Position numbers and translations under genes: made by a program. A stretch of DNA of 64,000 nt from Nonlabens xylanidelens. GTDB taxonomy: Bacteria; Bacteroidota; Bacteroidia; Flavobacteriales; Flavobacteriaceae. The stretch spans positions 806,001 through 870,000 of the forward strand of contig NZ_PTJE01000001.1 in NCBI RefSeq assembly GCF_002934445.1. The letters are read 5' to 3'. Shown in pieces: positions 2,005 to 64,000 of the stretch. Under the pieces are notes generated by a model. It searched no databases. It was not told the DNA's origin and saw only the letters and a list, made by a program, of their open reading frames with translations. Positions within the stretch are counted from its first letter, which is position 1, and each line of letters begins with the position of its first letter.

Positions 2005-3246
2005 ATGACTGACGACGTTGCAATAGATAAAAAGGCACTTTTAGAGCCTTTTCCATACCATAAAAAACTAAGAGACCATTTAAAAAGTCGCAAGAAAACC
2101 TGGCAATGGTTTAAAGACGAGAAGGTTAAAGCACAACAAGTAGAGTCTTTTAAAAAGAATCTGCTTAAAAACACTTACCGTCTAGATCTAGATAGTCATG
2201 CAAATTTATACCGTGTGTCTGACGCTATTTGTAAAGACCTAAATATCGATGCACAAGTCACTTTCTATCAAGAGAACAACAGTCTACAAGTAAATGCAAG
2301 TATTTCTGTAATTGAGAGAGAAGCGCATATTGTTTTTTCTGGTAATGTTTTACAGTTGTTAGATGATAAACAGTTAAAGGCCTTAATAGCTCACGAGCTC
2401 TCGCACTACCTTTTCTTTAAAATAGAAGATGGAGATTATGAGGTGACACAACGTATAGTTCTTGCTCTAGCAAACGACTCTCGTAGTGAGGATAGCATCA
2501 TAGAAACGGCACGTATTTTTCAACTGTACCTCGAACTTTTTTGTGATACAGGTGCTTTTAAATCTTGTAGAGAACACTACACGGTTATACAAATGCTCAT
2601 CAAATTAAATACAGGGCTGGCAGACGTAAATGCACAAAGTTACCTAGACCAGGCCAAAGAAATCATAAGTCAGGAAGATGAATCTACTAACCAGCAAACA
2701 CACCCAGAATCCTACTTGCGCAGTATTGCTCTAGATTTAAAAGCACGCAATTCTAAAGATTATGAAGAAGAACTACACAGGTTAATAGAGGGAAAGTGGG
2801 ATATCAATAGCCTAGATATTTTTGAACAAGAAGAGACTCGAGCATTAACATCTGACTTTATACAGCTTATTTTAAGGCCTCAATGGATCAATTCTAATGC
2901 TGTGATGAATCTAGCACAACAGTTTTTTCCAGACTTTAATAGAAGTGAAAAGATAGATACGAGTTCGCTTTCGCGAAAGCTGAAACACACCACACCTAGT
3001 ACTAAGAGTTATTTATGTTATCTCTTATTGGACTTTGCTAGAATAGATAGCGCACTAGAAAAATTACCGCTCGCGCATACTTTGGAGGTGTCAGAATTAT
3101 TAGAGTTAAAAGAAGATTACGAGCGTATTCTAAGAAAGGAGTTAAAACTGACTATTAGAGATTTCAAGAAATTAAAGGAAGAGGCTATGAATGATTTGAG
3201 CCGTGTAACCGAGAACCCAGATAGCAGTATTTACGACAATGAGTGA
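2005..3246 (+). CDS. M48-like zinc metallopeptidase, coupled to the downstream giant helicase
   Basis: The 413-aa protein carries a zinc peptidase motif HELSH at residues 130-134 (within LIAHELSHYLFF), with ELFCD at 177-181 supplying a plausible third ligand, the arrangement of M48-type peptidases. There is no signal peptide or obvious membrane segment, so it looks cytoplasmic, unlike HtpX. The C-terminal half is helical and charged with no domain I recognise. Its stop overlaps the start of the next gene (ATGAGTGA, 8 nt shared), which implies translational coupling and a shared process with the DUF4011-WGR helicase. A copy of the dispersed palindrome lies in the gene at 2967-2980, read as LSRKL. 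Confidence 0.7.
   Translation: MTDDVAIDKKALLEPFPYHKKLRDHLKSRKKTWQWFKDEKVKAQQVESFKKNLLKNTYRLDLDSHANLYRVSDAICKDLNIDAQVTFYQENNSLQVNASISVIEREAHIVFSGNVLQLLDDKQLKALIAHELSHYLFFKIEDGDYEVTQRIVLALANDSRSEDSIIETARIFQLYLELFCDTGAFKSCREHYTVIQMLIKLNTGLADVNAQSYLDQAKEIISQEDESTNQQTHPESYLRSIALDLKARNSKDYEEELHRLIEGKWDINSLDIFEQEETRALTSDFIQLILRPQWINSNAVMNLAQQFFPDFNRSEKIDTSSLSRKLKHTTPSTKSYLCYLLLDFARIDSALEKLPLAHTLEVSELLELKEDYERILRKELKLTIRDFKKLKEEAMNDLSRVTENPDSSIYDNE
2967..2980. repeat. Dispersed palindrome copy 1 (in M48-like gene)
   Basis: GCTTTCGCGAAAGC, 14 bp of perfect self-complementarity. The next pair is C/T, so the usual outer CG is lost on the right side. Read in frame as LSRKL. Confidence 0.9.
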
Positions 3247-6200
3247 TTATAAAGCAAGTTTTTTCAGTCTGCTAGATGAGGTTAAAGAACATGGAGGCAG
3301 TACGACACCAGATTTTATAGCTAGAGTATTACCACTTTTAGAAAAAGCACATTTTCTTAGAGAGCGCAATCTAGTTTTAGGTATTTATTCTATCGATTCT
3401 ATTGATTATAACGGTCGCGTGCTAGTAACTGAATCTGAGGGAAAAAATTTCACACAGTCTAATAAAGTATTCAAGAAGCCTAAACAACGTTATGCGGTTG
3501 AGGTAAGTGTAAATTATAAAGAGGTAAGTTCTCTTGACCCATTAGATGCTCCAGATGATTATGGTGATAGACTTTATGATCATGACGCGATTCATAAAGA
3601 TCTAGATGTTCCTATTTCAAAACCGGTCTATTTACCGCATTATAAAACTTGGGATTTTGAAACTGGTCATTACGATCCTATTACCGAGATTTTTACATTA
3701 GGTTTTATACTAGCTAGTGTAGCCTATGGTATAGATTTTAGAGATGTAGAAGAGTTAGAGCGTTTTGTAGAAAACAGAGAGCGACTTTATTTTTATAATA
3801 AAAACTTGCACCCTACTATACATCATGTAATTAGGGAGATGACACCACTTTATAGAGAAGGTCGTGCGCCTAGTCTAGAAGAAATAATAGCAAAGCTTAA
3901 AAATTATCGTGATTTTAATCCAGAAAACTATGTAGATCTTACCGATACAGAAGGTTTTAGAAATCTAAATCTGTCGGATCGTGGTAGTTATATTCTAGAT
4001 AAATTAAAACGCAGACTCTTTGATATCTCTAGAAGAAATAAATTACTCTATTTTAATGATCGAGGTGGTTTTTTAAACCTTACAGAGTCCTCTGTACCTA
4101 TGTTGTTGGACTATAAAAATATCAATGAGAAAGATTTAATATTTTGGAATAGTCATATACAGACTCAATTTATAAGCAAGAAAAAGATAAATCTTAACCG
4201 CTATCTAGACATAGATCAAAATAGATTTTTATCTCCAGCACTTAATAAAATACGATTAGAAGCGCGCAAGAGTAAGAACGAATACGGTTTTGACCAGCTG
4301 CGTGTTGTAGTCGCATTTTTACACTGGTATAATTTTAAAGAAAGCGCAGACGAGCGTATAAGTTCGCCACTTTTATTACTGCCAGTTTCTATCACAAAGA
4401 AAAAGGGGATAAAAGATAAGTATGAATTAACGGTAAATGATACAGAGGCCGAGGTGAATCCTGTCTTGAGTTATTACCTCAAGGATCTTTATGACATAGA
4501 TTTGCCAGATTTTGTAGATCTAGAAACGAGTAGCATAGAAGAGCTGGTACAAAGTATAAAAAATCAGATTGCTCTAGGCGGCACAGGAATAGATTTACAA
4601 TGGCGCGATAAGCCTAAAATACAGCTCATACATAAAATTGCAAAACGCAACTTTAAACTTAAAAAGCGTAAACTTAATAACCGTAATTCTGGTTTAAGCA
4701 CTCGTAGTTATGACTATTCTTATGACGCTGAAAATGTGAAGCCGTTAGGTCTCGCAATTTTCAACAATCTAATTGCCAAAAAACACAACCAGTTAGAATA
4801 CATCATTAACGAAGACATTAATCCCTACACAGATCTTGCTGTTGCAGAGCGCAGGCGTAGTTTTTACCATACCGATAACGATGGAAAGGTGAATCCGCTG
4901 GTGTGGGAAGTGGATACTTGCAACATGACTCTAGGTAATTTTAAATACCGTAAAATGAGTCTTGTACGTGATTATTCTGAGATCTTAAAAGCAGATATTA
5001 AAGATGATGTTTTTGATGAGCTCTTCAGCGATCAGCCTAAAAATATTAATCTAGACGCTTATAAAAAAACCAGTCTAGAAGAGCTGTATCCTATTATACA
5101 GTCCGACCCAACACAATCGCAAGCGGTTTTAAAAGCACGATCTGGAGAGAATTATATTATTCAAGGACCACCAGGAACAGGTAAATCACAAACGATTACT
5201 AACCTCATAGCCGACTATGTGGCGAGAGATAAAAAAGTACTTTTCGTTTGTGAAAAGCGTGCAGCGTTAGATGTAGTTTTTCACCGTTTAAAAAATAAAA
5301 AATTAGATGAGTTGTGTTGCTTAATTCACGATTCTCAAACCGATAAAAAAGCTTTTATCATGAACCTCAAAGATACGTATGAGGCTTTCATGAAAAAGAA
5401 TATGAATACGAGCACGCTTTCGCGAAAGCGAGATAAAACCATCCAAGAAATAGAAACACATCTAGGTAAATTAGAAAAGTTTCATATAAATATGCGAGAT
5501 GGTGAGCCGCCTTTATACGATTTATATCAAGTATTGATCGCTTATTATCAAGAAAAGGAAATGCTCTCAGATCAAGAGTTGATTTATGTACCTTTTTATA
5601 AAGAATGGGCAGATAATGAAACGTGGATCACAGAATTTATCTCGCAAGTAAAGCTTAATGACCACGGCAGTTCTATTGCAAACTATGCTTTAAATGGTGT
5701 TGCTGTAGAAATATTACAGGCATCTAATGTAAAAGGAGAGGTGCTTGAGAAGATAGAAAAAGCTACAGATGGATTAGATGCCCTGGTAGAACTGTTAGAT
5801 CAACAAGAAGTTGAGGTAAAAGAACAATCTATAGAGGCGTGGCATCAAGAATTTGATTTTGCAGAGAAAGTAGCGAGAATAGTAGAGCGTGATTCTTTAG
5901 GTATTTTTGATAAAAAAACCATCGCCGCGTCAGAGTTAGATAACCTGAATAGAAAATTAGAGAAACAAAGAAGGCTGCACGAGCGACTTATAGAAGAGAA
6001 TGAAAACTGGACTCAAAAATTTGATGATACAGACGCAAAGACAGCTCTCCAAAAATGGGAGAAGCTAGACGGTAGTTTCTTTAAATTTCTAAATCCGGGC
6101 TGGTATAAATTAAAAGGACAGGTAAAAGCTTCTTATAATTTTAATGCCCACCAGATAAAACCAGAAATAAGCAATGTTCTTAAATCGCTTAATGAAGAAT

Positions 6201-8743
6201 ATGAAGCGTTAGAGCAGTTAGAGGAGCAAAGAGAAGAGGCGGCACAAAGATTTGGTCTTACTAATTTTGTAACAGATTATCATTGGATTCAAGAGCAGCA
6301 AGATAATCCAGATCATATTATCAAAGCATGGACGACTAGAGATCATACTTCTTATGTACGTTCCTTATTAAGTTTTAAATCTCAATTTGATGAGTTGTAT
6401 AATCATCTAGAAGGTCTGTTCTCTAATCATGGAGCGCAGACACTATCGCAAATTGAAGACCAATTGCAGCGTGGAAGAGCCGCTGTACATACCCTAGGTT
6501 TATTTGCTCCTTATATAGAGCAACTTCATGGGTTGAGTCCAGAGATGCAACAGAATCTACGCACCAGAGACTGGCAAACAGATGATATTGCTTTTCACAC
6601 CGCTTATAAATCTGTAAAGGAGGTTTATGAAAAGGATCCTGTGTTTTCTCAATCTAGTGAAGACGGTTTAGGAAATTCTGTGCGTAAAATAAGCTCGCTA
6701 TTAGATAGTTATTACGATTCTAATGTCGCATTTATACGTTCTAAGATTAGAGATAAATTCTTAAATAAAGTGCGTATTACAGAGTCTGTGGCTGCACAGT
6801 TAACAGAAGAAGAGAAAGTTCTTAAAAAGGAATACAATGCATCGCGCAGGATTCTGGAAAATGAATTCGGTAAGAGCATGCGTTATAAATCTATACGTGA
6901 ACTTGCGACTGGAGATGCCCAAGATATTATGACTACACTTAAACCAGTGTGGTTAATGAGTCCGCTTAGTGTTAGTGATTCTATGCCTATTGACACCTCT
7001 ATTTTTGATGTGGTTATTTATGACGAGGCATCTCAAATAACGGTAGAAGAAGGTGTTCCTTCACTTTTCAGAACTCATCAAACTATAATTGTAGGAGATG
7101 AAATGCAAATGCCGCCTACTAACTTTTTCAGTGCAAATGTTACCGATCAAGAAGAAGACGAAGAAGAAACAGAAGAAAAAATAGGTATAAGTCTCGATGC
7201 AGATAGTTTATTAAATCAAGGGGCTCGTAAATTGAGTTCTGTAATGTTAGGCTGGCATTACCGCAGCCGTCGGGAGAGTTTAATAAGTTTTAGTAATGCA
7301 GCATTTTATAAAAGAAACCTACTTACTATACCAGACAGTCGCATACCTAATGCTGGTATTGAGCCACTAGCTCCTATAATAGATCCAGATCAAGAAATCG
7401 ATTATAAAGATGTTTTGAGCCGCAGCATCAGTTATCATTATATGGAAAATGCTATTTACCATAAACGTACTAATAAAGATGAGGCTGCTTATATCGCAAA
7501 CTTGGTACGTACTTTCTTAATGAATGACATTAAAAAAAGTATAGGTATTGTAGCTTTTTCTATGGATCAACAAAGTGAGATAGAGAGTGCTCTCGATAAA
7601 CTAGCGTTAGAAGACCCTCAATTCGGTATACAATTAGAAGAAGAATACCAGCGTACAGAAGAAGATCAATTCATAGGTTTATTTGTCAAAAATCTAGAAA
7701 ATGTTCAGGGTGATGAGCGTGATATAATTATCATGAGTATTTGTTATGGGTTTAATAATCAGGGCAAGATGTTTATGAACTTTGGACCTATTAATAGACG
7801 CGGTGGTGAGAAGAGGCTTAATGTTATCTTTTCAAGAGCAAAGCAAAATATGATGATCGTTTCTTCTATTCAGGCAGAAAATATCAAGAACGATTATAAT
7901 GAAGGAGCAAATTACTTTAAGAAGTTCTTGAAGTACGCAAAACATACATCTGATGGTCAGTTAATGGCGGCCAATTCTGTTCTCGATAATTTACATGCTC
8001 ACGAAGATGAAGCTGAGAAAACCAAACGTCTGCCTATTATTAATCAGTTGAAAGAAAAGCTGGAAGCCAAAGGTTATACGATAGACGATGCCGTTGGGCA
8101 ATCTCATTTTAAATGTGATATCGCTGTGCGCGAAAACGAGGCGACTTCTTACAAACTTGCTATATTAATAGATCGTTCTACTCATTATGCAACTGATAAT
8201 ATCTTGGAGCAATACTGTCAGAAACCAGATGTTCTAAGAGCATTCGGCTGGAAACTGCAACATGTTTATAGCAAAGACTGGTTAGAACAACCAGAACGTG
8301 TGATGGAAAAAATCATGCAAAGGTTAGAAGGTGAACTTGAACTCGAAACGGAACTCGAACTTGAAAATGAACTTGAGAACAAATCTGAAAACGAATTAGA
8401 GACTCCAATTGAAGAGCAGATTTCATCTACTGTAAATGAAGAATTACCAGCTGCAAAACCTCAGGAAAAGAAAGATCTATTAGAACTTGATGAGGATTTG
8501 AAACCTAAAAAAGAAGAAAAATCTAGTAGCAATTTAATCTTTAAACGTTATGAATTCTCAGAAGGTTCTAGTAACAAGTTTTGGGAAATTTCTGTGGATG
8601 GATTTGATATCATTACTAGATATGGTCGCATAGGTAATAAAGCACAAGAAAATAGAAAAACCTTTGAAGATCAAGTATCAGTTCTTAAAGAAGAAATGCG
8701 ATTAATAGGAGTGAAAACTCGTAAGGGGTATAGACCGGTTTAG
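3239..8743 (+). CDS. Giant DUF4011-type superfamily 1 helicase with nuclease-like and WGR domains
   Basis: The 1834-aa protein has a DUF4011 segment (about 248-460, starting ILDKLKRRLFDISRRNKLLYF) and an SF1 helicase core split over a long insertion. Walker A is GPPGTGKS at 643-650, Walker B is DEAS at 1262-1265, followed by the WHYRSRRESLISFSN motif, VQGDERD and FSRAKQN. After the core, about 1605-1700 (GYTIDDAVGQSHFKCDIAV, later LAILID) resembles the PD-(D/E)XK/Vsr-like MTES_1575 endonuclease domain. An acidic ELELE-rich linker (about 1700-1765) leads to a C-terminal WGR domain (about 1765-1834, with TRYGRIG), a nucleic-acid-binding module known from PARPs. Proteins of this architecture recur in candidate antiphage or DNA-repair contexts; here that role is inferred. 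The gene overlaps the M48-like peptidase gene by 8 nt. Confidence 0.8.
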   Translation: MSDYKASFFSLLDEVKEHGGSTTPDFIARVLPLLEKAHFLRERNLVLGIYSIDSIDYNGRVLVTESEGKNFTQSNKVFKKPKQRYAVEVSVNYKEVSSLDPLDAPDDYGDRLYDHDAIHKDLDVPISKPVYLPHYKTWDFETGHYDPITEIFTLGFILASVAYGIDFRDVEELERFVENRERLYFYNKNLHPTIHHVIREMTPLYREGRAPSLEEIIAKLKNYRDFNPENYVDLTDTEGFRNLNLSDRGSYILDKLKRRLFDISRRNKLLYFNDRGGFLNLTESSVPMLLDYKNINEKDLIFWNSHIQTQFISKKKINLNRYLDIDQNRFLSPALNKIRLEARKSKNEYGFDQLRVVVAFLHWYNFKESADERISSPLLLLPVSITKKKGIKDKYELTVNDTEAEVNPVLSYYLKDLYDIDLPDFVDLETSSIEELVQSIKNQIALGGTGIDLQWRDKPKIQLIHKIAKRNFKLKKRKLNNRNSGLSTRSYDYSYDAENVKPLGLAIFNNLIAKKHNQLEYIINEDINPYTDLAVAERRRSFYHTDNDGKVNPLVWEVDTCNMTLGNFKYRKMSLVRDYSEILKADIKDDVFDELFSDQPKNINLDAYKKTSLEELYPIIQSDPTQSQAVLKARSGENYIIQGPPGTGKSQTITNLIADYVARDKKVLFVCEKRAALDVVFHRLKNKKLDELCCLIHDSQTDKKAFIMNLKDTYEAFMKKNMNTSTLSRKRDKTIQEIETHLGKLEKFHINMRDGEPPLYDLYQVLIAYYQEKEMLSDQELIYVPFYKEWADNETWITEFISQVKLNDHGSSIANYALNGVAVEILQASNVKGEVLEKIEKATDGLDALVELLDQQEVEVKEQSIEAWHQEFDFAEKVARIVERDSLGIFDKKTIAASELDNLNRKLEKQRRLHERLIEENENWTQKFDDTDAKTALQKWEKLDGSFFKFLNPGWYKLKGQVKASYNFNAHQIKPEISNVLKSLNEEYEALEQLEEQREEAAQRFGLTNFVTDYHWIQEQQDNPDHIIKAWTTRDHTSYVRSLLSFKSQFDELYNHLEGLFSNHGAQTLSQIEDQLQRGRAAVHTLGLFAPYIEQLHGLSPEMQQNLRTRDWQTDDIAFHTAYKSVKEVYEKDPVFSQSSEDGLGNSVRKISSLLDSYYDSNVAFIRSKIRDKFLNKVRITESVAAQLTEEEKVLKKEYNASRRILENEFGKSMRYKSIRELATGDAQDIMTTLKPVWLMSPLSVSDSMPIDTSIFDVVIYDEASQITVEEGVPSLFRTHQTIIVGDEMQMPPTNFFSANVTDQEEDEEETEEKIGISLDADSLLNQGARKLSSVMLGWHYRSRRESLISFSNAAFYKRNLLTIPDSRIPNAGIEPLAPIIDPDQEIDYKDVLSRSISYHYMENAIYHKRTNKDEAAYIANLVRTFLMNDIKKSIGIVAFSMDQQSEIESALDKLALEDPQFGIQLEEEYQRTEEDQFIGLFVKNLENVQGDERDIIIMSICYGFNNQGKMFMNFGPINRRGGEKRLNVIFSRAKQNMMIVSSIQAENIKNDYNEGANYFKKFLKYAKHTSDGQLMAANSVLDNLHAHEDEAEKTKRLPIINQLKEKLEAKGYTIDDAVGQSHFKCDIAVRENEATSYKLAILIDRSTHYATDNILEQYCQKPDVLRAFGWKLQHVYSKDWLEQPERVMEKIMQRLEGELELETELELENELENKSENELETPIEEQISSTVNEELPAAKPQEKKDLLELDEDLKPKKEEKSSSNLIFKRYEFSEGSSNKFWEISVDGFDIITRYGRIGNKAQENRKTFEDQVSVLKEEMRLIGVKTRKGYRPV
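5415..5430. repeat. Dispersed palindrome copy 2 (in helicase gene)
   Basis: CGCTTTCGCGAAAGCG, exact 16-bp copy, read in frame as LSRKR in a charged region after the Walker A lobe. Confidence 0.95.
8326..8425 (+). repeat. Low-complexity acidic linker repeat inside the helicase gene
   Basis: Imperfect 6-nt units (GAACTT/GAACTC and variants) encode an ELELETELELENELEN-type run, a flexible acidic spacer between the nuclease-like and WGR domains. Short tandem units of this kind can change length by slippage, always in multiples of three here. Confidence 0.7.
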
Positions 8744-8746
8744 TTT

Positions 8747-11203
8747 TTATTCCCACTTAATCTGCATTCTCTTAATACGATCGGCGAGCTTTTCACTAGA
8801 TAACTTTTCGCGTAAGCGGTCTGTAATTATAGGAAATGAAAATGGAGTAGGTTGTTTGCAAGCTTTCCATACTATCGTTTGGTTTTCAATACGTTCAAAA
8901 GCTTCTCGCAAGCGATATTCTTCAATTTCTTGCTCGTAGGTTTCTGTGTATGCCTGACGGTAAAGTAAATTATCAGGTTCATTATCTCTAAATACCTCAA
9001 AGAGCAACTGACTGCTGCTTTGCAGGTGTTTTACTTTTACGGCTTTGTTAGGATAGCCGGTAAATACTAATCCAGAAATAACAGCGATATCTCTAAATTT
9101 TCTTTTGGCAAGCTCAGTGGCATTGACACTGGCTTCTAAATCTTCAAGAATCATGTCTGATGTGATGAGGTTGTTGTCCAGCACATTTTGCATATCAAAT
9201 TCTTGATCACTTAGTATTTCAAAACCGTAATCGTTATAAGCTAGCGTAAAACTGATAGGCTGTAATAAACTCATGCGATAAGCCAGGAGTCCTGCCATAG
9301 CCATGTGAACTAATCGACCTTCAAAAGGGTAAAATACCGAATGGTATCCTTCTCTAGTCTTAAACGTTTCTATCAAGAATTCATGATTCTGTGGTACAAT
9401 GCTTTCTTGCTGTTGTCTATTAATAATGTCTTTGAGCGCTTTTACCTCTGGAGTTCTCTTTTTACCGCTTTGAAAATGCTGCATTTCTTCTCTTAGTAAT
9501 TCACCTAATTGAGAGGTTAATGGCATGCGGCTACCCATCCAGCTGGTAACCTTTGCTTTTTTCTTTGAAGAATTACGCACTTGTGCTACCATTCCCTTTA
9601 AACGTACAAATTCTAGAGTACGACCGGCAAATACAAAAACATCACCACGTGATAATTGACTTATAAAATACTCTTCTATAGAACCTATGTAGCCGCCAGT
9701 AGCATATTTTACAGTAATACTAGTTCCTGTTACTATGGTTCCCATTTGTAAACGATGTCGCATGGCGATACCGCGATCGTTTATAAAATAACGACCATCC
9801 TCATCTATGGAGACCTTTTTATACTCATCATAAGATTCTAATGAAGCACTACCATAAACTATAAAGTGCAAGCACCATTCAAATTCTTCATAAGTAAGTT
9901 CTTGATAACAAAAAGTAGCCTTTACCTCTGGATATATATGATCAGGATAAAAACCTCCAGAAACGGCTAGCGTGCATAAATATTGAATAAGTACATCATA
10001 ACAATTTAGATAAGGCAGTCTGTCCTCAACAGCTTGGGTTTTAACGGCCACCTGTAAAGCGCTCGCTTCTATAAGTTCTAACGCATGTGTAGGTAAAAAG
10101 TAAATAACCGACGTTACTCCAGGTCGGTGACCAGATCTTCCTGCGCGTTGTAAAAAACGAGCTACCCCTTTGGGACTTCCTACTTGAATGATGGTTTCCA
10201 CAGGCGCAAAATCAACTCCTAAATCTAGTGAAGAGGTGCAAATACAAGCTTTTAGAGACTCGTTTCTAATAGCATTTTCTACCCAAATACGTGTTTCTTT
10301 ATTGATGGATCCATGATGCATAGCTACCTCACCAGCAAATTCTGGATGTTTATGCATTAATGCCTGAAACCACAATTCACATTGCGCTCTGGTATTAGTA
10401 AAAATCAGTGTTGATTTACTTTCGTTGATAATCTTTACAACATCTTCAAGGAGATGCAATCCTAAATGACCACGCCATGGAAATTTCTCCATCGTTTCTG
10501 GAATGATGGAGCGTACTTCTATTTCTTTTTTAAGATTTGCTTTGATGAGTACACTATTGTCATAGCGGTAAGAATCCACTCCTAATAAAACCTGTCTAGC
10601 TTGTTCTAGATTTCCTATTGTTGCACTAATTCCCCATATGCGCAGGTTTTTGTTAATTCCTGAGAGTCTAGAGAGGCCCAGTTCCATTTGTACACCACGT
10701 TTGGTGCCTAGTAGTTCGTGCCATTCATCAATAATAATGGCGTTACAATCTTTAAATACATTTACATGATCCTTAGTGGCAAGCAATAAATGCAAGCTCT
10801 CTGGGGTGGTAATTAATAAATCGGGCATGGCTTTTTTTTGCGCAGCCCTTTCTTTTGTGGTGGTGTCACCAGACCTTATTCCTACCGTAAATGGTAAGCC
10901 TATACCGTCCACAAATTTTTGCGAAGTTTGTGCTATTTCTTGAGATAGCGATCTTAAAGGTGTGATCCAGATCGCTTTTAACCCTTTTTTATTTTTGGTT
11001 TTATAATCTGGGTTTGATTTAATATAACTAAGAACTATTCCTACCCAAAGTGCGTATGTTTTACCACTACCAGTAGGTGCGTTGAGCAGTCCGTTTTTAC
11101 CAGATAGAAAAGCATCCCAAGTCTGTTTTTGAAACGGAAAAGCTTTCCAGCCTTGGGTCTCAAAATAGGATTCGGCGATATGGAGTAATTCTTTTTTTGT
11201 CAT
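8747..11203 (-). CDS. Lhr-like DEXH-box DNA helicase (ligase-associated damage-response type)
   Basis: This 818-aa SF2 helicase has motif I APTGSGKT (42-49), motif II DEWH (159-162), SAT-type motif III (193-195) and motif VI QRAGRSGHR (352-360). An Lhr-type winged-helix/C-terminal region follows. Length and motif spelling match the 'ligase-associated DNA damage response DEXH box helicase' family. Relatives are usually encoded beside an ATP-dependent DNA ligase and a metallo-exonuclease; neither gene is next to it here. Its stop lies 3 bp from the convergent stop of the giant helicase, leaving no room for an intergenic terminator. Confidence 0.85.
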   Translation of the reverse strand: MTKKELLHIAESYFETQGWKAFPFQKQTWDAFLSGKNGLLNAPTGSGKTYALWVGIVLSYIKSNPDYKTKNKKGLKAIWITPLRSLSQEIAQTSQKFVDGIGLPFTVGIRSGDTTTKERAAQKKAMPDLLITTPESLHLLLATKDHVNVFKDCNAIIIDEWHELLGTKRGVQMELGLSRLSGINKNLRIWGISATIGNLEQARQVLLGVDSYRYDNSVLIKANLKKEIEVRSIIPETMEKFPWRGHLGLHLLEDVVKIINESKSTLIFTNTRAQCELWFQALMHKHPEFAGEVAMHHGSINKETRIWVENAIRNESLKACICTSSLDLGVDFAPVETIIQVGSPKGVARFLQRAGRSGHRPGVTSVIYFLPTHALELIEASALQVAVKTQAVEDRLPYLNCYDVLIQYLCTLAVSGGFYPDHIYPEVKATFCYQELTYEEFEWCLHFIVYGSASLESYDEYKKVSIDEDGRYFINDRGIAMRHRLQMGTIVTGTSITVKYATGGYIGSIEEYFISQLSRGDVFVFAGRTLEFVRLKGMVAQVRNSSKKKAKVTSWMGSRMPLTSQLGELLREEMQHFQSGKKRTPEVKALKDIINRQQQESIVPQNHEFLIETFKTREGYHSVFYPFEGRLVHMAMAGLLAYRMSLLQPISFTLAYNDYGFEILSDQEFDMQNVLDNNLITSDMILEDLEASVNATELAKRKFRDIAVISGLVFTGYPNKAVKVKHLQSSSQLLFEVFRDNEPDNLLYRQAYTETYEQEIEEYRLREAFERIENQTIVWKACKQPTPFSFPIITDRLREKLSSEKLADRIKRMQIKWE

Positions 11204-11308: not shown

Positions 11309-11324
11309 CGCTTTCGCGAAAGCG
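11309..11324. repeat. Dispersed palindrome copy 3 (intergenic, between divergent genes)
   Basis: CGCTTTCGCGAAAGCG, exact copy, about 105 bp upstream of the Lhr-like gene and 85 bp upstream of the small unknown gene. The flanking pair is T/T, so it is not extended. Confidence 0.95.
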
Positions 11325-16393: not shown

Positions 16394-16430
16394 AAATACC
16401 AAGCTAGAAATGGCTTGGTATTTTTTTATG
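16394..16430 (+). terminator. Rho-independent terminator after sucB
   Basis: An 11-bp perfect stem (AAATACCAAGC / GCTTGGTATTT) with an 8-nt loop is followed by a T-run, 38 nt after the sucB stop. Confidence 0.85.
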
Positions 16431-16527
16431 CTGATTTTTATTATTCATTAATTTGGGTTTGAAAATATTTCATCCCCTTTTATGTATGTAAAATGAATAT
16501 CAACTAGTAAACCAACCAGGTGGAGAT

Positions 16528-16845
16528 ATGGGTAGAGCGATTGATGAATTATTTGCGCAAATATTTTCTGGACTCAATTTTGGTGATCCTCAACATTTGT
16601 TGATGGCCAATGCCTTTGTCGAAGCTATTGGAAATTCATTAGAACAATGGCATAATGATCCTAGTGTAAGTAGCATTGAATATGCTAGAATGGCTTGGTC
16701 TGGTGCGATGAAAGCTAGTACAGCCTTTCAAGATCTTGACTTTAATTTTCAAAATGATTCAAATACTAGAAATGCCGTTGAATCTCAAGTTTTTTCACCA
16801 AATCAACAATTTCCATTATTGGGAATAATACCAAATGATTGTTAA
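16528..16845 (+). CDS. Small protein of unknown function, accessory region
   Basis: The 105-aa product is soluble and contains FSGLNFGDPQHLLMANAFVEAIGNSLEQWHNDP. I do not recognise a family. The same frame is open for 12 further codons upstream (back to a TAA at 16489-16491) and reads NEYQLVNQPGGD with no start codon, so this may be the tail of a once longer protein. Its stop is directly followed by the ATG of the next gene (TAAATG), implying coupling. Size, the paired exported protein and the disturbed surroundings are compatible with a toxin/immunity remnant, but there is no domain evidence for that. Confidence 0.45.
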   Translation: MGRAIDELFAQIFSGLNFGDPQHLLMANAFVEAIGNSLEQWHNDPSVSSIEYARMAWSGAMKASTAFQDLDFNFQNDSNTRNAVESQVFSPNQQFPLLGIIPNDC

Positions 16846-17406
16846 ATGAAAACGATTCTTTTTACTTTTTTGCTGTTTGTATTTAACTGTGAAACACAAA
16901 CACAAACATCAGCCTCATACGATAGTGAGGTTTATCGATTGATCAATGCGATTTTTAAATCAAAAAATAACCACAGTCAAAACACTTTAATACCGATTAA
17001 TATTTATCATGATTTAAATCAATCTAGCAAAAATATTGAAGATGAGTTGTTATCGAGATTATTAAATACTGCAAATAATGAAATAGCAATTTCTTTGCCT
17101 GCAAGTATTCTTGAGGCCAAAAATTGGAAATCTACTAATACAGACTTTAAAAGTGATCGTTTTGATCAAAATAAGGTTATCGTTAAAAATGTTGTTTTTT
17201 GCGATCCATCAGATTGTAATCTCGTTAAGAAAAATGACAAAACAAATTTAATTTATACTATAAATGCCATCTTGTTTTTAGATAATTACGCTATAATTTA
17301 AACTACGCATATGTCATCTTTCATTACTGTTTATTTATACAAAAGAGTAGGTGATGATTTTCAAAGACAAGCAATGATTACAGATCCTCCACTAGGATAC
17401 GAGTAA
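16846..17406 (+). pseudogene. Exported protein interrupted by an in-frame TAA (possible 186-aa original)
   Basis: The first 151 codons (16846-17301) encode a signal peptide (MKTILFTFLLFVFNCETQTQ) and a mature part with a Cys pair (CDPSDC) near 124-129. After TAA at 17299-17301 the same frame stays open for 34 codons to a second TAA at 17404-17406, reading TTHMSSFITVYLYKRVGDDFQRQAMITDPPLGYE. This is a protein-like tail that continues the beta-rich character of the C-terminus. I read it as one gene split by a nonsense codon. Alternatives are a genuine 151-aa protein with a tiny 31-aa ORF at 17311-17406, or a sequencing error. It abuts the upstream small gene and ends before the first duplicated terminator. 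Confidence 0.5.
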
Positions 17407-17426
17407 TTTTAAATATTATTTGAAAT

Positions 17427-17474
17427 AAAAAAACCTCCCATGAAAAACGTAGTTTTTCATGGGAGGTTTTTTTT
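17427..17474. terminator. Strong bidirectional hairpin terminator (duplicated copy A)
   Basis: A perfect 15-bp stem CCTCCCATGAAAAAC / GTTTTTCATGGGAGG with a 3-nt loop GTA has an A-run on the left and a T-run on the right, so it can act on both strands. It is a diverged copy of the fabD terminator at 19945-19989. Confidence 0.9.
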
Positions 17475-17664
17475 CTGAGAATGCAATAAACTTTATTCTC
17501 CTTGATCTAATTTCTTACTCGGCAATACTACCTTGACTCACTGTGGTAGAGCGATCTATTTTCTTAATCAAGCCTTGTAATGCTTTTCCTGGACCTACTT
17601 CTATAAATTCTGTAGCGCCGTCTTTAATCATCTCTTGAATAGACTGTGTCCATTTTATTGGTGC
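17434..17664. repeat. Direct repeat copy A: duplicated fabD 3' end plus terminator
   Basis: This block is collinear with 19949-20179 at a constant offset of 2515 bp. It contains the terminator hairpin, the spacer and the last 46 codons of fabD. Over the coding part (17515-17655) I count 3 differences in 141 bp; the spacer shows 4 more. Similarity fades after about 17664, where NHL-like coding remnants begin. Confidence 0.92.
17515..17655 (-). pseudogene. fabD 3' fragment (last 46 codons)
   Basis: The minus strand reads [20 protein letters not shown] and continues to QGSIAE and a stop, matching residues 250-295 of the intact FabD encoded at 20030-20917 with one amino-acid change (Ile for Val near the end). 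There is no start and no catalytic Ser/His, so it cannot make a working transacylase. It is fused in position to the decayed NHL-like gene. Confidence 0.92.
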
Positions 17665-18041
17665 ATCCTTCTATAGTTTCGATCGTTTTAACATTCCCTT
17701 TAGGATCTATTTTTACTAATTTACCTCTCTTCATATTATTGTCTTGTTCACATAGAGGTTTCCTTTACTGTCCATAGCACTGCCCATAGAGTTTTTAAGA
17801 CTTTCTATATACGTGTCGTTTTACCTTTAGAGTTCATTTATAAATGTGTTTCATTTCCAGAATCTATTTCTCAAGTTTCATATTCTGAAATATATACATG
17901 GTCATCTTTTGCAAACTGAATGAAACCGTTTGTAGGAATACCGCTAGTAAGTGTTAAGGTGTTAGGATTTTCTTCTGAAGGCACTGCGGTAAATAACAAT
18001 CCAATAACAACAATGAGTTTAAACGATATAGTTTTTATCAT
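17656..18041 (-). pseudogene. Decayed exported NHL/SMP-30-like beta-propeller gene
   Basis: From ATG at 18041 the minus strand encodes a signal peptide (MIKTISFKLIVVIGLLFTAVPS) and then GIPTNGFIQFAKDDHVYISEYET before a stop at 17871. Further pieces in shifted frames read SLKNSMGSAMDSKGNLYV and [20 protein letters not shown], the spelling of NHL-repeat or gluconolactonase-like propeller blades. At least two frameshifts or stops separate the pieces and the gene ends abruptly at the fabD fragment. It was probably a periplasmic or secreted protein; only about one blade or so remains. Confidence 0.7.
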
Positions 18042-18590
18042 GATATAGATATTAAGTAGGTAAACATCTAGAATTGAAAATATACTCTCGACTCTTTGAG
18101 TACATATGTACAAATATTTATTGGGTGACATAAAGGTTTTATATATTTCATTTAATTGTAAATGGATATAAAATGTAAGTTGAATACTTATCAATGCGCA
18201 CAATTAAATCGATAGTATTACTATAGGTAATGCTGTAAAGACTCGGTTGGAGTTATAAATGAATCCTTTTATTCTGCTTTTAAACAGTATATCCACCTTC
18301 ATGAATAAGCATATGAGGTAATGTGCAAGTTTATGGAATTACCGGCATGCATTAATAGATTTTATCTATTAAAAACCTATTGACAATAGATTTATCACAA
18401 TATCTCATGGTTTGATGATAGGTTGTGATAAACATTTTTTATAAGTTGATATTATCTACTATAAAACGTGATAACATAGGAATATGTTTGTGTCAACAAA
18501 GAAAGGAAATATATCAGTCAATTTAAATGAATCATGAAAACTAACATTTACACTCAAACAAATATTAAACAAATATTAAAAATAAAGTAT
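18042..18590. other. 549-bp AT-rich region without a gene
   Basis: Between the NHL remnant and the orphan lipoprotein I see no convincing coding sequence. It contains an inverted repeat (18391-18432) that may regulate the lipoprotein gene, and otherwise short A/T-rich tracts with stops in all frames. Confidence 0.6.
18391..18432. promoter_or_regulatory. Inverted repeat upstream of orphan lipoprotein
   Basis: TTTATCACAA at 18391-18400 is mirrored by TTGTGATAAA at 18423-18432 with a 22-nt spacer. It lies about 160 bp upstream of the lipoprotein start. It could be an operator pair or a weak stem; there is no T-run. Confidence 0.4.
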
Positions 18591-25723: not shown

Positions 25724-25747
25724 TTCTCGCTTTCGCGAAAGCGAGAA
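25724..25747. repeat. Dispersed palindrome copy 6, extended to 24 bp (intergenic)
   Basis: The core CGCTTTCGCGAAAGCG is extended by four complementary pairs (TTCT...AGAA), 8 bp after the stop of the surface-protein gene. Could fold into a strong RNA stem but has no T-run. Confidence 0.95.
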
Positions 25748-38195: not shown

Positions 38196-38263
38196 AATGG
38201 TTGTTTTTTATATCACTTAAAGATACAAAAAAATAGCATGTTTATCACTCTGTTTTTTAAGGC

Positions 38264-38294: not shown

Positions 38295-38314
38295 CAAAGT
38301 ATTTAAACAAGTAT

Positions 38315-38339
38315 GAGGGGACTAGAGTCCCCTCTTTTT
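38315..38339 (+). promoter_or_regulatory. Leader hairpin with T-run ahead of rimP (possible attenuator)
   Basis: GAGGGGAC (38315-38322) pairs with GTCCCCTC (38327-38334) with a 4-nt loop, followed immediately by TTTTT. It looks like an intrinsic terminator but lies between the promoter and the rimP start (38346). It could attenuate transcription of an operon that encodes the elongation factor NusA. Confidence 0.65.
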
Positions 38340-38345
38340 ATAAAT

Positions 38346-38813: not shown

Positions 38814-38821
38814 GAAGTAGT

Positions 38822-40054: not shown

Positions 40055-40086
40055 ATTAGAAATTAAAGTCAATCCTGAACCATTTT

Positions 40087-44149: not shown

Positions 44150-44169
44150 TTAGCTTTCGCGAAAGCTAA
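44150..44169. repeat. Dispersed palindrome copy 11, variant arms, 20 bp (intergenic)
   Basis: The inner 14 bp GCTTTCGCGAAAGC is conserved but the usual outer C/G pair is replaced on both sides by A/T, keeping self-complementarity through TTA...TAA. It lies 19 bp upstream of the SPOR gene start. Confidence 0.93.
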
Positions 44170-45671: not shown

Positions 45672-48600
45672 ATGGCTACTACTAAGAAATACTGGAAAAG
45701 CACTGCGCAACTTGATGACAGCAATGAGATTGTAAAAAATCTTGAGCAGAATGAGTTCGCGAGTCCTATTCCTTCTGATGAGTTTTTAGGAAATGATGAG
45801 GCGATGGAGTCTTCTAGCACTTCACGACGTGATTTTCTAAAGTATGTTGGTTTCAGTACTGCGGCAGCATCGCTTGCGGCATGTGAAGGACCAGTAATAT
45901 ACTCGGTACCTTACGTTAATCAACCAGAGCAAATCATTCCTGGAATGGCTAACTATTATGCGACAACTATCGCAAATGGTTATGATTTTGCTAGTATATT
46001 GGTTAAAACTCGTGAAGGTCGACCTATTAAGATAGAGAGTAATAAAGAGGCAATGTATCGTGGTCATGCAAATGCTCGTGTTCATGCTTCTGTGTTATCT
46101 TTATATGATAATAACAGATTGAAAACTCCTATGATTAAAGGAGTTGAATCTAATTGGGAAGAGTTTGATAAGCAAGTTGGGGATCAACTTTCTTCTTTAA
46201 ATGGAAAAGAACTAGTTGTGTTAGCGCAAACTTTTGCTAGTCCATCAATGAATAAAATCTTTTCACAGTTAAAAGCTAGGTATTCTAATGTGCGTGTCGT
46301 TACTTATGACGCTGTTGGTGAAGATGCTGCTCTTGCTGCTTTTGAAGCTAGATATGGCTCTAGAGCATTAGCTGATTATGATTTTACCGATGCAGAGACT
46401 ATTGTTTCTATAGGAGCTGATTTTGTAGGTGACTGGCAAGGTGGAGGATTTGATAAGGGTTATGCAAAGTCTCGTGTTCCTAAGAATGGTAAAATGTCTC
46501 AGCATATCCAATATGAGGCAAACTTATCTTTATCTGGTTCTAATGCTGATAGACGTTATCCTGTAACGCCTACTGAGCAAAAAAATATCATTGCTGCATT
46601 ATATAGTAAAATAGTAGGTGGAGGAGCAAATGTCTCTCTATCTGATAAAGTTGCTAAATCTGTTGAGCAAACGGCTATAAGTCTTAAGCGCGCAGGTAGT
46701 AAGGCTGTTGTTCTTTGTGGTGTTCCTGATCAAGCAGCACATCAATTAACTATTGCAATAAATGAAGCGCTAAGATCAACTATAGTTGATACAGTTTCTC
46801 CTATCATGACTCGTCAGGGTAATCGTAAGTCTGTTGATGCTTTGGTTAAAGATATGAATGCAGGAAAGGTAGGTGCTATTTTTATAGCAGGTGTTGATCC
46901 TGTATATAGTTATAATGATAGTGACGCTTTCGCGAAAGCGTTAGAAAAAGTGTCGCTTAGAGTGTCTTTTGCTTCTTCAATGAATGCAACAGCTGAAAAG
47001 TGTAATTATGTTGCTACTACTCCTCATTTCCTTGAGTCTTGGGGTGATACTGAAATAAAGAAAGGGCATGTGTATTTAACGCAGCCTACTATAAATCCAA
47101 TTTTTAAGACAAGACAATTACAAGACACTTTATTAAAATGGTCTGGTAGTTCTCAATCTTTTAAAGATTTCCTAAAAGAAACTTCTAAAGCGTCAGGTTC
47201 TAGTTGGAATCAATCATTACAGGATGGTTTTTATAAAACATCTGTTGTAGTTAACGATTCTGAAGAGGAAGTTGAGCGCGAAGTGATAAGTAACTCTGCT
47301 GCGTTAAGTGCTATGGCTAGCGCCAAGAAGCCTTCTGGCTATGAGCTTACTTTATATACTAAAACTGGTCTAGGTGATGGTGTTATGGCAAATAACCCAT
47401 GGTTACAAGAATTGCCAGATCCTATTACTAGAACGACTTGGGATAATTACGTAACTATTTCTCAAGCAGATGCGGAGAAGCTAGGTGTTGTTAATGAAAA
47501 TGTAGCTAACGGTGCTCTTGATGGAACATATGTAACGGTAACGTTAGATGGTGTGCAAAGAAAATTACCTGCTCTTATTCAACCAGGACAGGCTGCTGGA
47601 ACAATCGGTATAGCTTTAGGTTATGGGCAGACAGCTGCTATTCAAGAAGAAATGCAGACTGGTGTAAATGCATATCCTTTCTATAAGAACGGTGTTGCAG
47701 TACAAACTGTTTCTGTGAAGGATGCAGGTGGTACACATGAGTTTGCTTGTACTCAATTACAAAACACTATGATGGGTCGCGATATTATACGTGAGACCGA
47801 TCTAGAAACATATAGAACTGGTAATAAGGATAATTTCAATCCTATGCCTGAGGTTTCTTTGAACCATGTTGAAACTCCGGTTACTTCTCCAGATGTAGAT
47901 CTTTGGGAAAGTTTTGATAGATCTGTAGGTCATCATTTCAATATGTCTATCGATTTAAATGCATGTACTGGTTGTGGTGCTTGTGTTATTGCTTGTCATG
48001 CAGAGAACAATGTTCCTGTTGTTGGTAAGACTGAGGTTAGAAAATCTCGTGATATGCACTGGTTGCGTATAGATAGATATTACTCTTCTGAAGATAGTTT
48101 TGAGGCAGATGAAGCTAAGAAAGATGGCTTCGATGGATTATTCGGTGATAATGGTTCGTTAGGTGGTTTTGGAGAGTTGGAAGTCCCAGCTGATAATCCA
48201 CAAGTGGCTTTCCAGCCAGTGATGTGTCAGCACTGTAATCACGCACCTTGTGAAACTGTATGTCCAGTGGCTGCATCTTCTCATGGTCGTCAGGGTCAAA
48301 ATCACATGGCTTATAACCGTTGTGTAGGTACTCGTTATTGTGCAAACAACTGTCCTTACAAGGTTCGTAGATTTAACTGGTTCTTGTATAATGGTAACGA
48401 TGAGTTTGATTATCATATGAACAACGATTTAGGTCGTATGGTTATTAATCCAGATGTTACTGTAAGAAGTCGTGGTGTAATGGAGAAATGTTCTCTATGT
48501 ATGCAAATGACTCAAATGACTATTCTTGAAGCTAAGAAAGACGGTCGCATGATTAAAGATGGTGAATTTGCTACGGCATGTTCTAATGCTTGTTCAAGCG

Positions 48601-50750: not shown

Positions 50751-51454
50751 TGAATAGATCTGTAAAAACGTTCTTGTTTGCATTTGCTTCAATTCTTGTT
50801 GTTTCCTGTGGAGGAGATGATAAGTCGACAGCAACTGATTCAAATAGAAGTGTTCAGTATTTCCCTAACATGTATGAGTCTGCAGGTTATGAGGCTTATC
50901 AAGAAGGAGAGATATTTCCTGGAAATGTAGAAGCTCAATTACCTGTTGAAGGTACGGTTTCTAAAGGGTGGATGCCATATGATTATGATGATACTAATGA
51001 TGGTTACGCTTCCGCGAAAGCGAACTTAAAAAATCCTCTTCCATATACTGAAGCTAATTTAACTAATGGTGAGGCTCTTTTTGGAATTTACTGTGCCATA
51101 TGTCACGGTAAAAAAGGTGATGGTCAAGGTACTCTAGTTAAATCTGAAAAGATATTAGGTGTACCTAGTTATGATGCTCGTGATATTTCACAAGGTTCTA
51201 TTTATCATGTTATGTATTACGGTATAAATTACATGGGTTCTTATGCTGCTCAAACTTCTATAGAAGAGAGATGGCAAATAGCTCATCATGTAGATGCTTT
51301 AACTAGAGATTTGAAAGGTCAGGCTCGTCAAGAGTTTGTTACCGAGGTTTCTAATGAAGATGAAACGGCGATGATGGATGTACACCACGATGAGGAGACT
51401 CATAGTGTTGATGATCACGTTACAGAAAATGAACCAACAACTGAAGGGCATTAA
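50750..51454 (+). CDS. actE: Alternative Complex III subunit ActE (monoheme cytochrome c lipoprotein)
   Basis: The 234-aa product starts with a lipoprotein signal peptide (ending VVSC, Cys at about residue 20) and has one heme site CAICHGKKGDGQG with a distal Met-rich segment. It passes electrons from the complex to an acceptor. The C-terminal tail is rich in His, Asp and Glu (MMDVHHDEETHSVDDH). A one-mismatch palindrome at 51007-51022 encodes ASAKA. Confidence 0.92.
   Translation: MNRSVKTFLFAFASILVVSCGGDDKSTATDSNRSVQYFPNMYESAGYEAYQEGEIFPGNVEAQLPVEGTVSKGWMPYDYDDTNDGYASAKANLKNPLPYTEANLTNGEALFGIYCAICHGKKGDGQGTLVKSEKILGVPSYDARDISQGSIYHVMYYGINYMGSYAAQTSIEERWQIAHHVDALTRDLKGQARQEFVTEVSNEDETAMMDVHHDEETHSVDDHVTENEPTTEGH
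51007..51022. repeat. Dispersed palindrome copy 13, one mismatch (in actE)
   Basis: CGCTTCCGCGAAAGCG differs from the core at one base (T to C), changing the encoded Phe to Ser (ASAKA rather than AFAKA). It looks like a decaying copy. Confidence 0.75.
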
Positions 51455-56449: not shown

Positions 56450-56473
56450 ATACCGCTTTCGCGAAAGCGGTAT
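56450..56473. repeat. Dispersed palindrome copy 14, extended to 24 bp (intergenic)
   Basis: The core is extended by ATAC...GTAT, a flank not used by other copies yet fully complementary. It lies between the divergent peroxiredoxin-like and ruvB genes. Confidence 0.95.
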
Positions 56474-62026: not shown

Positions 62027-64000
62027 TTGAGATACAGTAATAATAACCTAAGGGCTTTTGTCTTTCTTTTGTCTTTATTTGTTTTCGCTTTCGCGAAAGC
62101 GCAACAACCAACAACTACTCCGCAAGATTCTGTCAGAACAGGTGCAAGAATAGGTAGGGTAAGTTTACCTAATCCACCCAGTATAGTTACTCTGTACACT
62201 TATGATGCAAATCTAGATCGCTATGTGTATTCCAGTAGTTTTAATGGGTATAACATAGATTTTCCATTTATACTTACTAGAGAGCAGTATCTAGACCGTG
62301 TTCTTAAAGAACAAATGTCAAATTATTTTAAGGAAAAAGCTGCAGCCATTGCTGGTAGAACAGAAGAAGATAAAGAAAAGCAAAAAGATTTATTACCTAA
62401 TTTTTATGTAAATTCTGAGTTGTTTGCGTCCATTTTTGGAGGTACAGAAATCGATGTGGATCCACAAGGGTCTGTAGAAGTGGATTTAGGATTGCTTTTC
62501 AATAGGTCAGATAATCCTAGTTTTTCTCCAAGAAATAGGCAGAATTTAACCTTTGATTTTAATCAACGTATTAATTTAAGTCTGGTAGGTAAAGTCGGTA
62601 CAAGATTACAGGTAAATGCAAATTATGATACTCAAAGTACGTTTAACTTTCAGAATCAAATTAAGTTAGATTATACACCTACAGAAGATGATATACTACA
62701 AAGTATTGAGGTAGGTAACGTGTCTATGCCGCTTAACTCTCAATTGATACGTGGGGCTCAAAGCCTTTTTGGTATTAAGACAGAGTTGCAATTCGGTAAA
62801 ACTAGAATAACTGCTGTGTTTTCAGAACAGCAGTCAGAATCCACTACGGTACAGGCCGCTGGTGGTGCGACAATTAATGATTTTGACTTTTTCTCATTAG
62901 ATTATGATGAGAATAGGCATTACTTCTTATCTCATTATTTTAGAGATAATTATGATACTTCTTTGGAGAATTATCCTTTCATTAATAATAACATCCAGAT
63001 TACACGTGCTGAAGTATGGATTACAAATAGAGGTAATAGTACTCAAGATGTACGTAATCTAGTCGCAATACAAGATATAGGAGAGGCAAATCCTGATAAT
63101 ATAGGTCTAGGCACACAGCCAGGAGGTTTTATTAATGTAGCTGCAAATAGCTTTCCTGATAATGAAAATAACGATTTTAATCCAGAAGGAATTAATGGTG
63201 GTGGGCAAACGATTTTAAATTCTCAAATAAGGGAAATAGCAACTGTTCAAGCAGGTTTTGGTAGTGCTACGGTTAATGAGGGTTTTGATTATGTGACCTT
63301 GGAAAATGCACGTAAACTTACCGCTCAAGAATATACTTTAAATACCCAACTAGGTTATATCTCATTAAGACAGCGTTTAAATAATGACGAAGTTCTTGCA
63401 GTTGCGTTTCAATATACTGTAGGTGGTCAGGTATATCAAGTCGGTGAATTTGCAAATGACGGTGTTGTAGCTACAGATGTTGTGGTAAATGCAAATCCTA
63501 ATCAACCAGCTGTAAATAATCAAAGTCTAGTTGTTAAACTTCTTAAAAGTAACCTTACTAACGTTAGTCAACCTATCTGGGATTTAATGATGAAAAACGT
63601 CTATAATTTAGGCGGTTTTCAATTAACTCAAGAAGATTTTAAATTAAATATTTTTTATCAATATCCGCCAGAGTTAAATTACATCACGGCTGCCGAGGGA
63701 ACCTTAACTAATCCTGCTGTTCCATTACCAGGAGATGTTGATCAAACCACATTAATACGAGTATTTAATCTGGATAGATTGAATCAGCAAGGAGATCCAC
63801 AGCCAGCAGGTGATGGTTTTTTTGATTACCTACCTGGTATAACTATCGATCCGGAAAATGGTAGAATTATTTTTACAACGGTAGAGCCTTTTGGTAGTCA
63901 TTTATTTGATAAGTTGAATACTGGTTCAGGTACTGAAGATTATGAAGTTCCTAGTACCTATAATGCTAACCAAGAGCAGTACGTATATCGCGATATGTAT
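62027..64000 (+). CDS. sprA: Gliding motility/type IX secretion protein SprA (5' part, runs off the window)
   Basis: SprA is the giant outer-membrane beta-barrel translocon of the type IX secretion system, needed for gliding and for export of surface adhesins. The only usable start is TTG at 62027: an in-frame TAG (ruvA stop) lies 6 nt upstream and no ATG occurs before the signal peptide. The product begins with a signal peptide of the form RAFVFLLSLFVFAFAKA followed by QQPTTTPQ, then conserved SprA segments such as LPNPPSIVTLYTYDANLDRYVYS, NLTFDFNQRINLSLVGKVG and ANYDTQSTFNFQNQIKLDY. 658 codons are present; the C-terminus is missing. Confidence 0.93.
   Translation, partial: MRYSNNNLRAFVFLLSLFVFAFAKAQQPTTTPQDSVRTGARIGRVSLPNPPSIVTLYTYDANLDRYVYSSSFNGYNIDFPFILTREQYLDRVLKEQMSNYFKEKAAAIAGRTEEDKEKQKDLLPNFYVNSELFASIFGGTEIDVDPQGSVEVDLGLLFNRSDNPSFSPRNRQNLTFDFNQRINLSLVGKVGTRLQVNANYDTQSTFNFQNQIKLDYTPTEDDILQSIEVGNVSMPLNSQLIRGAQSLFGIKTELQFGKTRITAVFSEQQSESTTVQAAGGATINDFDFFSLDYDENRHYFLSHYFRDNYDTSLENYPFINNNIQITRAEVWITNRGNSTQDVRNLVAIQDIGEANPDNIGLGTQPGGFINVAANSFPDNENNDFNPEGINGGGQTILNSQIREIATVQAGFGSATVNEGFDYVTLENARKLTAQEYTLNTQLGYISLRQRLNNDEVLAVAFQYTVGGQVYQVGEFANDGVVATDVVVNANPNQPAVNNQSLVVKLLKSNLTNVSQPIWDLMMKNVYNLGGFQLTQEDFKLNIFYQYPPELNYITAAEGTLTNPAVPLPGDVDQTTLIRVFNLDRLNQQGDPQPAGDGFFDYLPGITIDPENGRIIFTTVEPFGSHLFDKLNTGSGTEDYEVPSTYNANQEQYVYRDMY
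62086..62101. repeat. Dispersed palindrome copy 16 (in the sprA signal peptide)
   Basis: CGCTTTCGCGAAAGCG, exact copy, encoding the AFAKA at the signal peptidase site of SprA. Confidence 0.95.

Follow-up and report, generated by a model that had tools for sequence, protein, structure and literature searches.

The palindrome and its copies in the window

We analysed a stretch of 64,000 nucleotides from Nonlabens xylanidelens (contig NZ_PTJE01000001.1, positions 806,001 to 870,000; below, the window, with positions counted from its first letter), in which a 16-bp perfect palindrome, CGCTTTCGCGAAAGCG, recurs within and between genes. Together with its near copies the 16-mer occupies 16 places, 13 of them exact, two with one mismatch and one with two, whereas dinucleotide-preserving shuffles (n = 100, ≤3 mismatches) gave a mean of 0.06 places and a maximum of 1. 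An earlier inspection of the letters alone (the sequence-only reading) had claimed 16 scattered copies, and all 16 places could be recovered, eight exactly as given and eight shifted by 1–4 bases (e.g. 23094 rather than 23090, and 56454 rather than 56450); the single mismatch it noted at 51007 is there, and the copies at 2966 and 44152 have one and two mismatches, respectively. The places are as follows (ORF, open reading frame; aa, amino acids):

2966–2981: copy with one mismatch, within the ORF 2005–3246
5415–5430: exact copy, within a large helicase/nuclease gene (3239–8743)
11309–11324: exact copy, not in any ORF of at least 150 aa
14777–14792: exact copy, within the gene for 2-oxoglutarate dehydrogenase E1; identical in 5 of 7 aligned Nonlabens genomes
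23094–23109: exact copy, within an aminotransferase gene; identical in 14 of 18 aligned Nonlabens genomes, the rest with at most 2 mismatches
25728–25743: exact copy, intergenic, with a stop codon 11 bases earlier
29846–29861: exact copy, intergenic, adjoining the DNA polymerase I gene
31628–31643: exact copy, within a metallophosphatase gene; identical in 6 of 13 aligned Nonlabens genomes
36153–36168: exact copy, within a 1134-aa TMEM260-like gene; identical in 12 of 16 aligned Nonlabens genomes
37353–37368: exact copy, intergenic, with tRNA-Gln on one side and a Usp gene on the other
44152–44167: AGCTTTCGCGAAAGCT, two mismatches and still a perfect palindrome, not in any ORF of at least 150 aa; the full consensus stands at this place in several relatives
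46925–46940: exact copy, within a 1022-aa ORF; identical in 3 of 7 aligned genomes
51007–51022: copy with one mismatch, in an ORF; the same change in 5 of 5 relatives compared
56454–56469: exact copy, not in any ORF of at least 150 aa
58952–58967: exact copy, intergenic, with a stop codon 20 bases earlier
62086–62101: exact copy, near the start of an ORF behind ruvA (presumably SprA), in an apparent signal peptide (FAFAKAQQ)

The copies are not confined to the window, an outcome that would have spoken against the sequence-only reading: the whole genome (3.28 Mb, 21 contigs) holds 579 exact 16-mers, compared with 0 for the reversed pattern. Within 464 kb of it, places with 0, 1, 2, 3 and 4 mismatches number 88, 23, 7, 2 and 8, whereas 60 control palindromes searched in the same 464 kb gave means of 0, 0, 0.02, 2.0 and 10.7 and maxima of 0, 0, 1, 55 and 95. 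The controls had the same half-composition and three or four CpG, and those sharing much of the motif catch copies of the site itself. Compared with these controls, the copies are nearly all-or-none. As a side observation, the region 3239–11203 encodes a 1834-aa protein (DUF4011, AAA helicase, MTES_1575 nuclease and WGR) that stands tail to tail with an Lhr-type helicase.

Shape, spacing and conservation of the site

The core is flanked outward by A- and C-rich, G-poor arms, giving a symmetric pattern of about 50 bp in all. Across 214 half-sites of the N. xylanidelens genome the frequency of G in the arms is 0.01–0.12 from position 11 to about position 27 from the centre (background 0.17), and A peaks at positions 11 and 17. 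Comparable arms flank the core in 280 half-sites from other Nonlabens genomes, 22 from Dokdonia and 54 from genome G227. The left and right arms of one site are no more alike than arms of different sites (107 sites, z = -0.9). The halves thus vary independently, which fits two separately read half-sites, and for the same lack of left–right covariation a hairpin or cruciform was rejected. The stem is preceded by T-rich and followed by A-rich sequence, the reverse of a terminator.

Along the chromosome the sites are evenly distributed. For 104 sites in 400 kb the mean gap is 3.82 kb with a coefficient of variation (CV) of 0.46, compared with 0.99 for random placement; none of 10,000 random placements was as even, nor was any of 5,000 in which the 54/50 split between coding and intergenic sites was preserved. 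Seven other Nonlabens genomes (60 kb each) gave CVs of 0.31–0.56 (pooled 0.45 over 83 gaps). On a larger scale, 61 sites of one subtype in the single-contig 3.9-Mb genome G004 fall into eight 0.5-Mb bins with 5–9 sites in each, the largest gap being about 244 kb (both by hand count). Neither confinement to the origin nor a large site-free terminus domain is seen in this genome, although the positions of its origin and terminus were not determined and the counts would not reveal a weaker gradient.

The sites are also conserved in place. When the 16 window sites were compared with 18 other Nonlabens genomes (five genomes outside the genus being left out), 63 of 102 orthologous 16-mers were fully identical to those of the window. 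Full identity was found in 15 of 380 neighbouring 16-mers and in 4.7% of all 16-mers compared, and base identity at the orthologous sites was 94% versus 75–77%. These figures include no alignable instance for the sites at 2966, 5415 and 58952, and an alignment at an intergenic site may owe its anchoring to the site, so that the comparison is more secure for coding sites. Relatives that lack a site often have in its place a sequence only a few point changes away, and sometimes one with many changes; none of the alignments of orthologous sites showed an inserted unit.

By simple gene calls, 50 of 104 copies in 400 kb and 54 of 107 in 464 kb are intergenic (one of the latter, 62086, being actually coding); intergenic DNA makes up only about 11% of the sequence, yet holds about half of the copies. 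The statement of the sequence-only reading that the palindrome is not tied to gene type or strand therefore holds broadly and has to be refined by this preference. Coding sites occur in all three frames, the commonest of which (25 of 53) reads Ala-Phe-Ala-Lys-Ala. Among the intergenic sites, 16 of 50 lie within 25 bp after a stop codon, versus 194 of 1367 random intergenic places. There is no clear tie to a type of intergenic region, gaps between convergent genes containing 8 of 46 sites in 400 kb, as expected from their bases.

Distribution among Bacteroidota and in phages

The inner 14-mer, GCTTTCGCGAAAGC, is present in 288–857 copies in each of 23 Nonlabens genomes (N. xylanidelens included), with 0 for the control. 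Wider searches were made in samples of the family, the order and the phylum that have some genomes in common. In the family sample 61 of 299 genomes match the 14-mer; the rich ones are three Nonlabens, G211 (408 copies) and G227 (857), and the other 56 hold 1–19. Matches occur in 32 of 395 genomes of the order sample, with none above two copies outside the family, and the exact 16-mer occurs in 9 of 296 genomes of the phylum sample, all except N. xylanidelens having 1–2 copies. For the DNA polymerase I encoded in the window, Nonlabens ulvanivorans and N. tegetincola are among the best named matches. Of 80 named loci around this gene, each covering up to about 23 kb, only three from Nonlabens and three from Dokdonia contain the 14-mer at least twice, and a Leeuwenhoekiella locus contains it once. 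Counted in this way over the whole genome and its relatives, as the sequence-only reading had proposed, the palindrome is abundant in Nonlabens, in Dokdonia and in one additional genome.

In a tree of 101 polymerase proteins G227 groups with Dokdonia and G211 stands beside Leeuwenhoekiella. Site-richness has to change three times on this tree, starred branches forcing two of the changes, and the history of the site, as read from these sequences, may have been one early gain followed by losses, or more than one gain. G211 combines its 408 14-mers with weaker arms and more mismatches; the system may there be in decay or at an early stage. In eight other genera (2–12 loci each, all around DNA polymerase I) no 10-mer or 12-mer is as enriched; their top words occur about once per locus, like shared coding or tRNA sequence, a few commoner words not having been followed up. 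Nor were the same half-sites with a different spacer found in related genera, and a half-site-like word in Leeuwenhoekiella was discarded, being mostly one shared place across several species. We found no publication describing the palindrome, within a search whose scope excluded most subscription papers and bioRxiv preprints; the 12-mer and 14-mer appear in no paper searched, and the ten papers containing the 10-mer are, by their titles and the beginnings of their abstracts, not on such a repeat.

In several site-poor genera the few copies cluster in 10–60 kb. Genome G097, with only 16 exact 14-mers genome-wide, has 18 near copies in one island of 60 kb (L252–L254, G097:C3:25000-84999). The simple reading of such islands is transfer from the site-rich lineage. 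The genes of the G097 island include efflux genes, a multicopper oxidase and a Fic protein, and at 35737–41793 of the joined stretch four genes stand in a row (432, 227, 1056 and 313 aa), the second of which matches MksE; we take this to be a JetABCD/Wadjet-like order. No candidate for a sequence-specific binder was seen among 19 proteins of the island that were searched. By eye, several genera of the family also share a copy of the 14-mer within an apparent TolC-type signal peptide (Ala-Phe-Ala-Lys-Ala) and a further one at a distance of 933 bp; these recurrent copies are possibly a marker of horizontal transfer of efflux genes.

The site is also found in phages. An exact-match scan of viral contigs gave 41 stretches, some of which, in GC-rich contigs, look like chance matches. 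The portal, capsid, terminase or tail genes of several other site-bearing contigs mark these as true phages (judged partly by eye). These phages include two groups that are unrelated to each other. A capsid search for group 1 returned 20 loci, of which the 11 at 62–100% identity all have the site or a near copy and the 9 at 44–47% do not; a terminase search for group 2 returned five loci at 74–100% with the site and one at 34% without it. Both searches began from site-bearing contigs, so that presence of the site is partly chosen, while its absence from the sister groups is not. Neighbouring group 1 sites are separated by about 4.3–6.1 kb; three of them keep their position with respect to the capsid gene between phages whose capsids are only 62% alike, and one group 1 contig has an integrase. 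The named phages closest to these groups are Cellulophaga phage phi39:1 and the Mu-like Winogradskyella phage Peternella_1, and both lack the site. By analogy with its Mu-like relative, group 2 is probably temperate; no transposase was found in the group 2 contigs. Two named Nonlabens phages that were fetched, P12024S and P12024L, have no site, and each is annotated with an Erf and an exonuclease of its own. In P12024L, moreover, three successive genes (16409–18674) are annotated as 2OGFeDO oxygenase, glucosyltransferase and methyltransferase, where P12024S has other genes; this set suggests hypermodified bases. A comparison of the 34-nt site consensus with known phages and with known plasmids was uninformative (two weak matches each, E 0.9–4).

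Possible functions of the site

The site is thus abundant, symmetric with independent half-sites, evenly spaced, conserved at orthologous positions, spread along a whole chromosome and present in phages. Regular distances between long symmetric sites whose halves are independent point above all to a dimeric protein with an architectural role; protein binding, a dimeric binder and that role are what we infer. Our favoured explanation, to which we assign a probability of only about 0.42, is that the palindrome forms the core of an approximately 50-bp symmetric site for a putative lineage-specific homodimeric protein that organises the whole replicon. Such a protein would most likely act by anchoring or spacing nucleoid domains of about 4 kb. 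Selection or drive would oppose both the loss and the crowding of sites, leaving one site per stretch of a few kb; sites would arise and decay by point change at permissive positions such as linkers, signal peptides and the bases just after stop codons; and phages resident in these chromosomes would come under the same rule. The binding site for a chromosome-organising protein that the sequence-only reading had listed among its suggestions is therefore the one we prefer, although no such protein has been found.

Noc with its binding site (NBS) and ParB with parS involve a 14–16-bp palindrome of a dimeric chromosome protein; the likeness ends with the hundreds of copies found chromosome-wide here and with a half-site offset that, by eye, differs from the consensus. 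SlmA and MatP are nucleoid-organising proteins whose sites are likewise palindromic and which are macrodomain-specific, whereas no 0.5-Mb bin is empty in G004. Protein searches (secretin, RecC, PDDEXK_1 and ParB_N) covered 24 chosen genomes, 9 site-rich and 15 not. ParB_N proteins occur in all 24; among the site-rich genomes G006 alone has a second one, of 616 aa. In five aligned Nonlabens ParB proteins the specificity positions (matched by eye) retain GKSR and GHGRA, residues reported for parS binding (PMC7383237). A ParB or Noc paralogue was consequently rejected as the binder, none being common to the 9 site-rich genomes beyond a ParB with parS-type residues.

Several points weigh against an organising protein. 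No binder was identified, ParB_N being the only family tested as one, and it is single-copy in 8 of the 9 site-rich genomes, with parS-type residues kept. A 20-kb stretch of G001 (L256, G001:C4:332500-352499) has no site, so that a gap of this length is tolerated, and G211 has weaker arms (42 half-sites). The genomes used for conservation are related and their instances not independent; moreover, even spacing and conservation also fit an uptake signal. Phages need not depend on the shape of the host chromosome, and the hosts of the site-bearing contigs were inferred from the site itself. The site-free stretch of G001 contains secretin and T2SSE-ATPase genes beside two giant proteins, one of them with an RHS repeat.

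If the site were a DNA-uptake signal, Nonlabens and Dokdonia would be naturally competent, a surface receptor would prefer the site, and copies would accumulate by recombination drive. For the Neisseria DNA uptake sequence (DUS), one study reports spacing linked to recombination fragments, stringent conservation and absence from recently acquired genes (PMC2397512); for the Haemophilus uptake signal sequence (USS), another reports a contribution of AT-rich arms and the drawing of DNA through an outer-membrane secretin pore (PMC7811141). High copy number, spacing, stringent conservation at permissive positions and, in the case of the USS, AT-rich arms are shared with the Nonlabens site, so that the spacing and conservation agree with the DNA-uptake-like signal proposed from the sequence alone; the lack of sites in the G001 stretch with secretion and RHS genes also fits. 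USS and DUS, however, are not perfect palindromes, as the core here is. A secretin is found in 3 of the 24 genomes and in only 2 of the 9 site-rich ones (N. xylanidelens and G001; pilus genes were not searched for), and group 1 phages carry the site every 4–6 kb or so, whereas the DUS avoids recently acquired genes; on balance we regard uptake as a live but rather unlikely alternative. The phage evidence favours a self tag more than uptake. Such a tag would resemble Chi in being read by a nuclease or recombination enzyme, with site-free DNA degraded further while the chromosome and its resident phages keep their sites; the carriage of the site by phages and the Erf and exonuclease genes of the two site-free Nonlabens phages speak for it. 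With one site per 4–5 kb the density is similar to that of Chi, which has 39 copies in 200 kb of E. coli K-12, and PDDEXK_1 proteins of AddAB-like size are present in 24 of 24 genomes. This nuclease is family-wide and the site is not, so that an AddAB-type role would not explain the confinement to one lineage, and RecBCD was rejected as a reader because RecC was found in none of the 24 genomes. Chi itself is a short, one-sided sequence, in contrast to a lineage-specific palindromic 16-mer with arms, and its spacing in two 100-kb parts of E. coli K-12 is uneven (CV 1.56 and 0.93, pooled 1.27, versus 0.46 here). With a 20-kb site-free stretch tolerated as well, a self tag of the Chi type appears unlikely, though still a live alternative.

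The remaining alternatives fare worse. The behaviour of the palindrome had been likened to the highly iterated palindrome of cyanobacteria (HIP1, GCGATCGC), and the likeness holds for perfect symmetry, very many copies and occurrence in and between genes, as well as for species differences by point change; it would make the site a by-product of an orphan methyltransferase, or of a repair bias, acting on an inner core. HIP1 is 8 bp rather than 16 bp long, and the Nonlabens site differs in its even spacing, its long G-poor arms of nearly 20 bp on each side and its genus-wide conserved positions. HIP1 has been tied to orphan methyltransferases that read inner palindrome sequences (PMC4390886), and a term search of that paper on non-cyanobacterial occurrence, spacing and phages gave 0 matches. 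Outside the sites TCGCGA occurs 38 times, compared with 47 expected from base composition and 37.8 from a maximal-order Markov model, and TTCGCGAA occurs twice, compared with 4.9 and 0.3, respectively. An inner methylation core was rejected since neither TCGCGA nor CGCG is enriched outside the sites (methyltransferases themselves were not searched for), and we consider a by-product of this type very unlikely. Many near-identical short copies could also point to a selfish or mobile repeat of the repetitive extragenic palindromic (REP) type. The self-spreading repeat envisaged earlier does not agree with sites that stand in frame in conserved genes, at orthologous positions, and that are lost mostly by point change; a mobile stem-loop unit such as REP or the bacterial interspersed mosaic element (BIME) was rejected given the absence of insertions and of stem-loop covariation and the location of half of the sites in genes, and this explanation is hardly credible. 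The excess of intergenic sites shortly after stop codons would suit an ordinary regulatory or terminator element. With half of the sites inside genes, no enrichment between convergent genes and the reversed order of the flanks, by which an intrinsic terminator or promoter was rejected, such an element is highly improbable.

Beside the favoured organising protein we tentatively entertain, as possible rather than probable, a metric address system, in which one site per about 4 kb, in the chromosome and in resident phages, would be read by a putative dimeric protein that sets loop size or marks residency. Two unrelated phage groups, one with an integrase and one with a Mu-like relative, would have adopted the signal, and the two site-free Nonlabens phages, one of them with base-modification genes, would live without it. 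If true, this would add a previously undescribed class of genome-wide signal; we know of no genome-wide nucleoid or self-DNA signal for Bacteroidota, a major phylum. The site may also serve as a tracer, as islands in site-poor genera would point to transfer from the site-rich lineage. With about 600 sites that are even, conserved across the genus and shared with phages, the question of what spaces dispersed palindromes becomes directly testable in Nonlabens.

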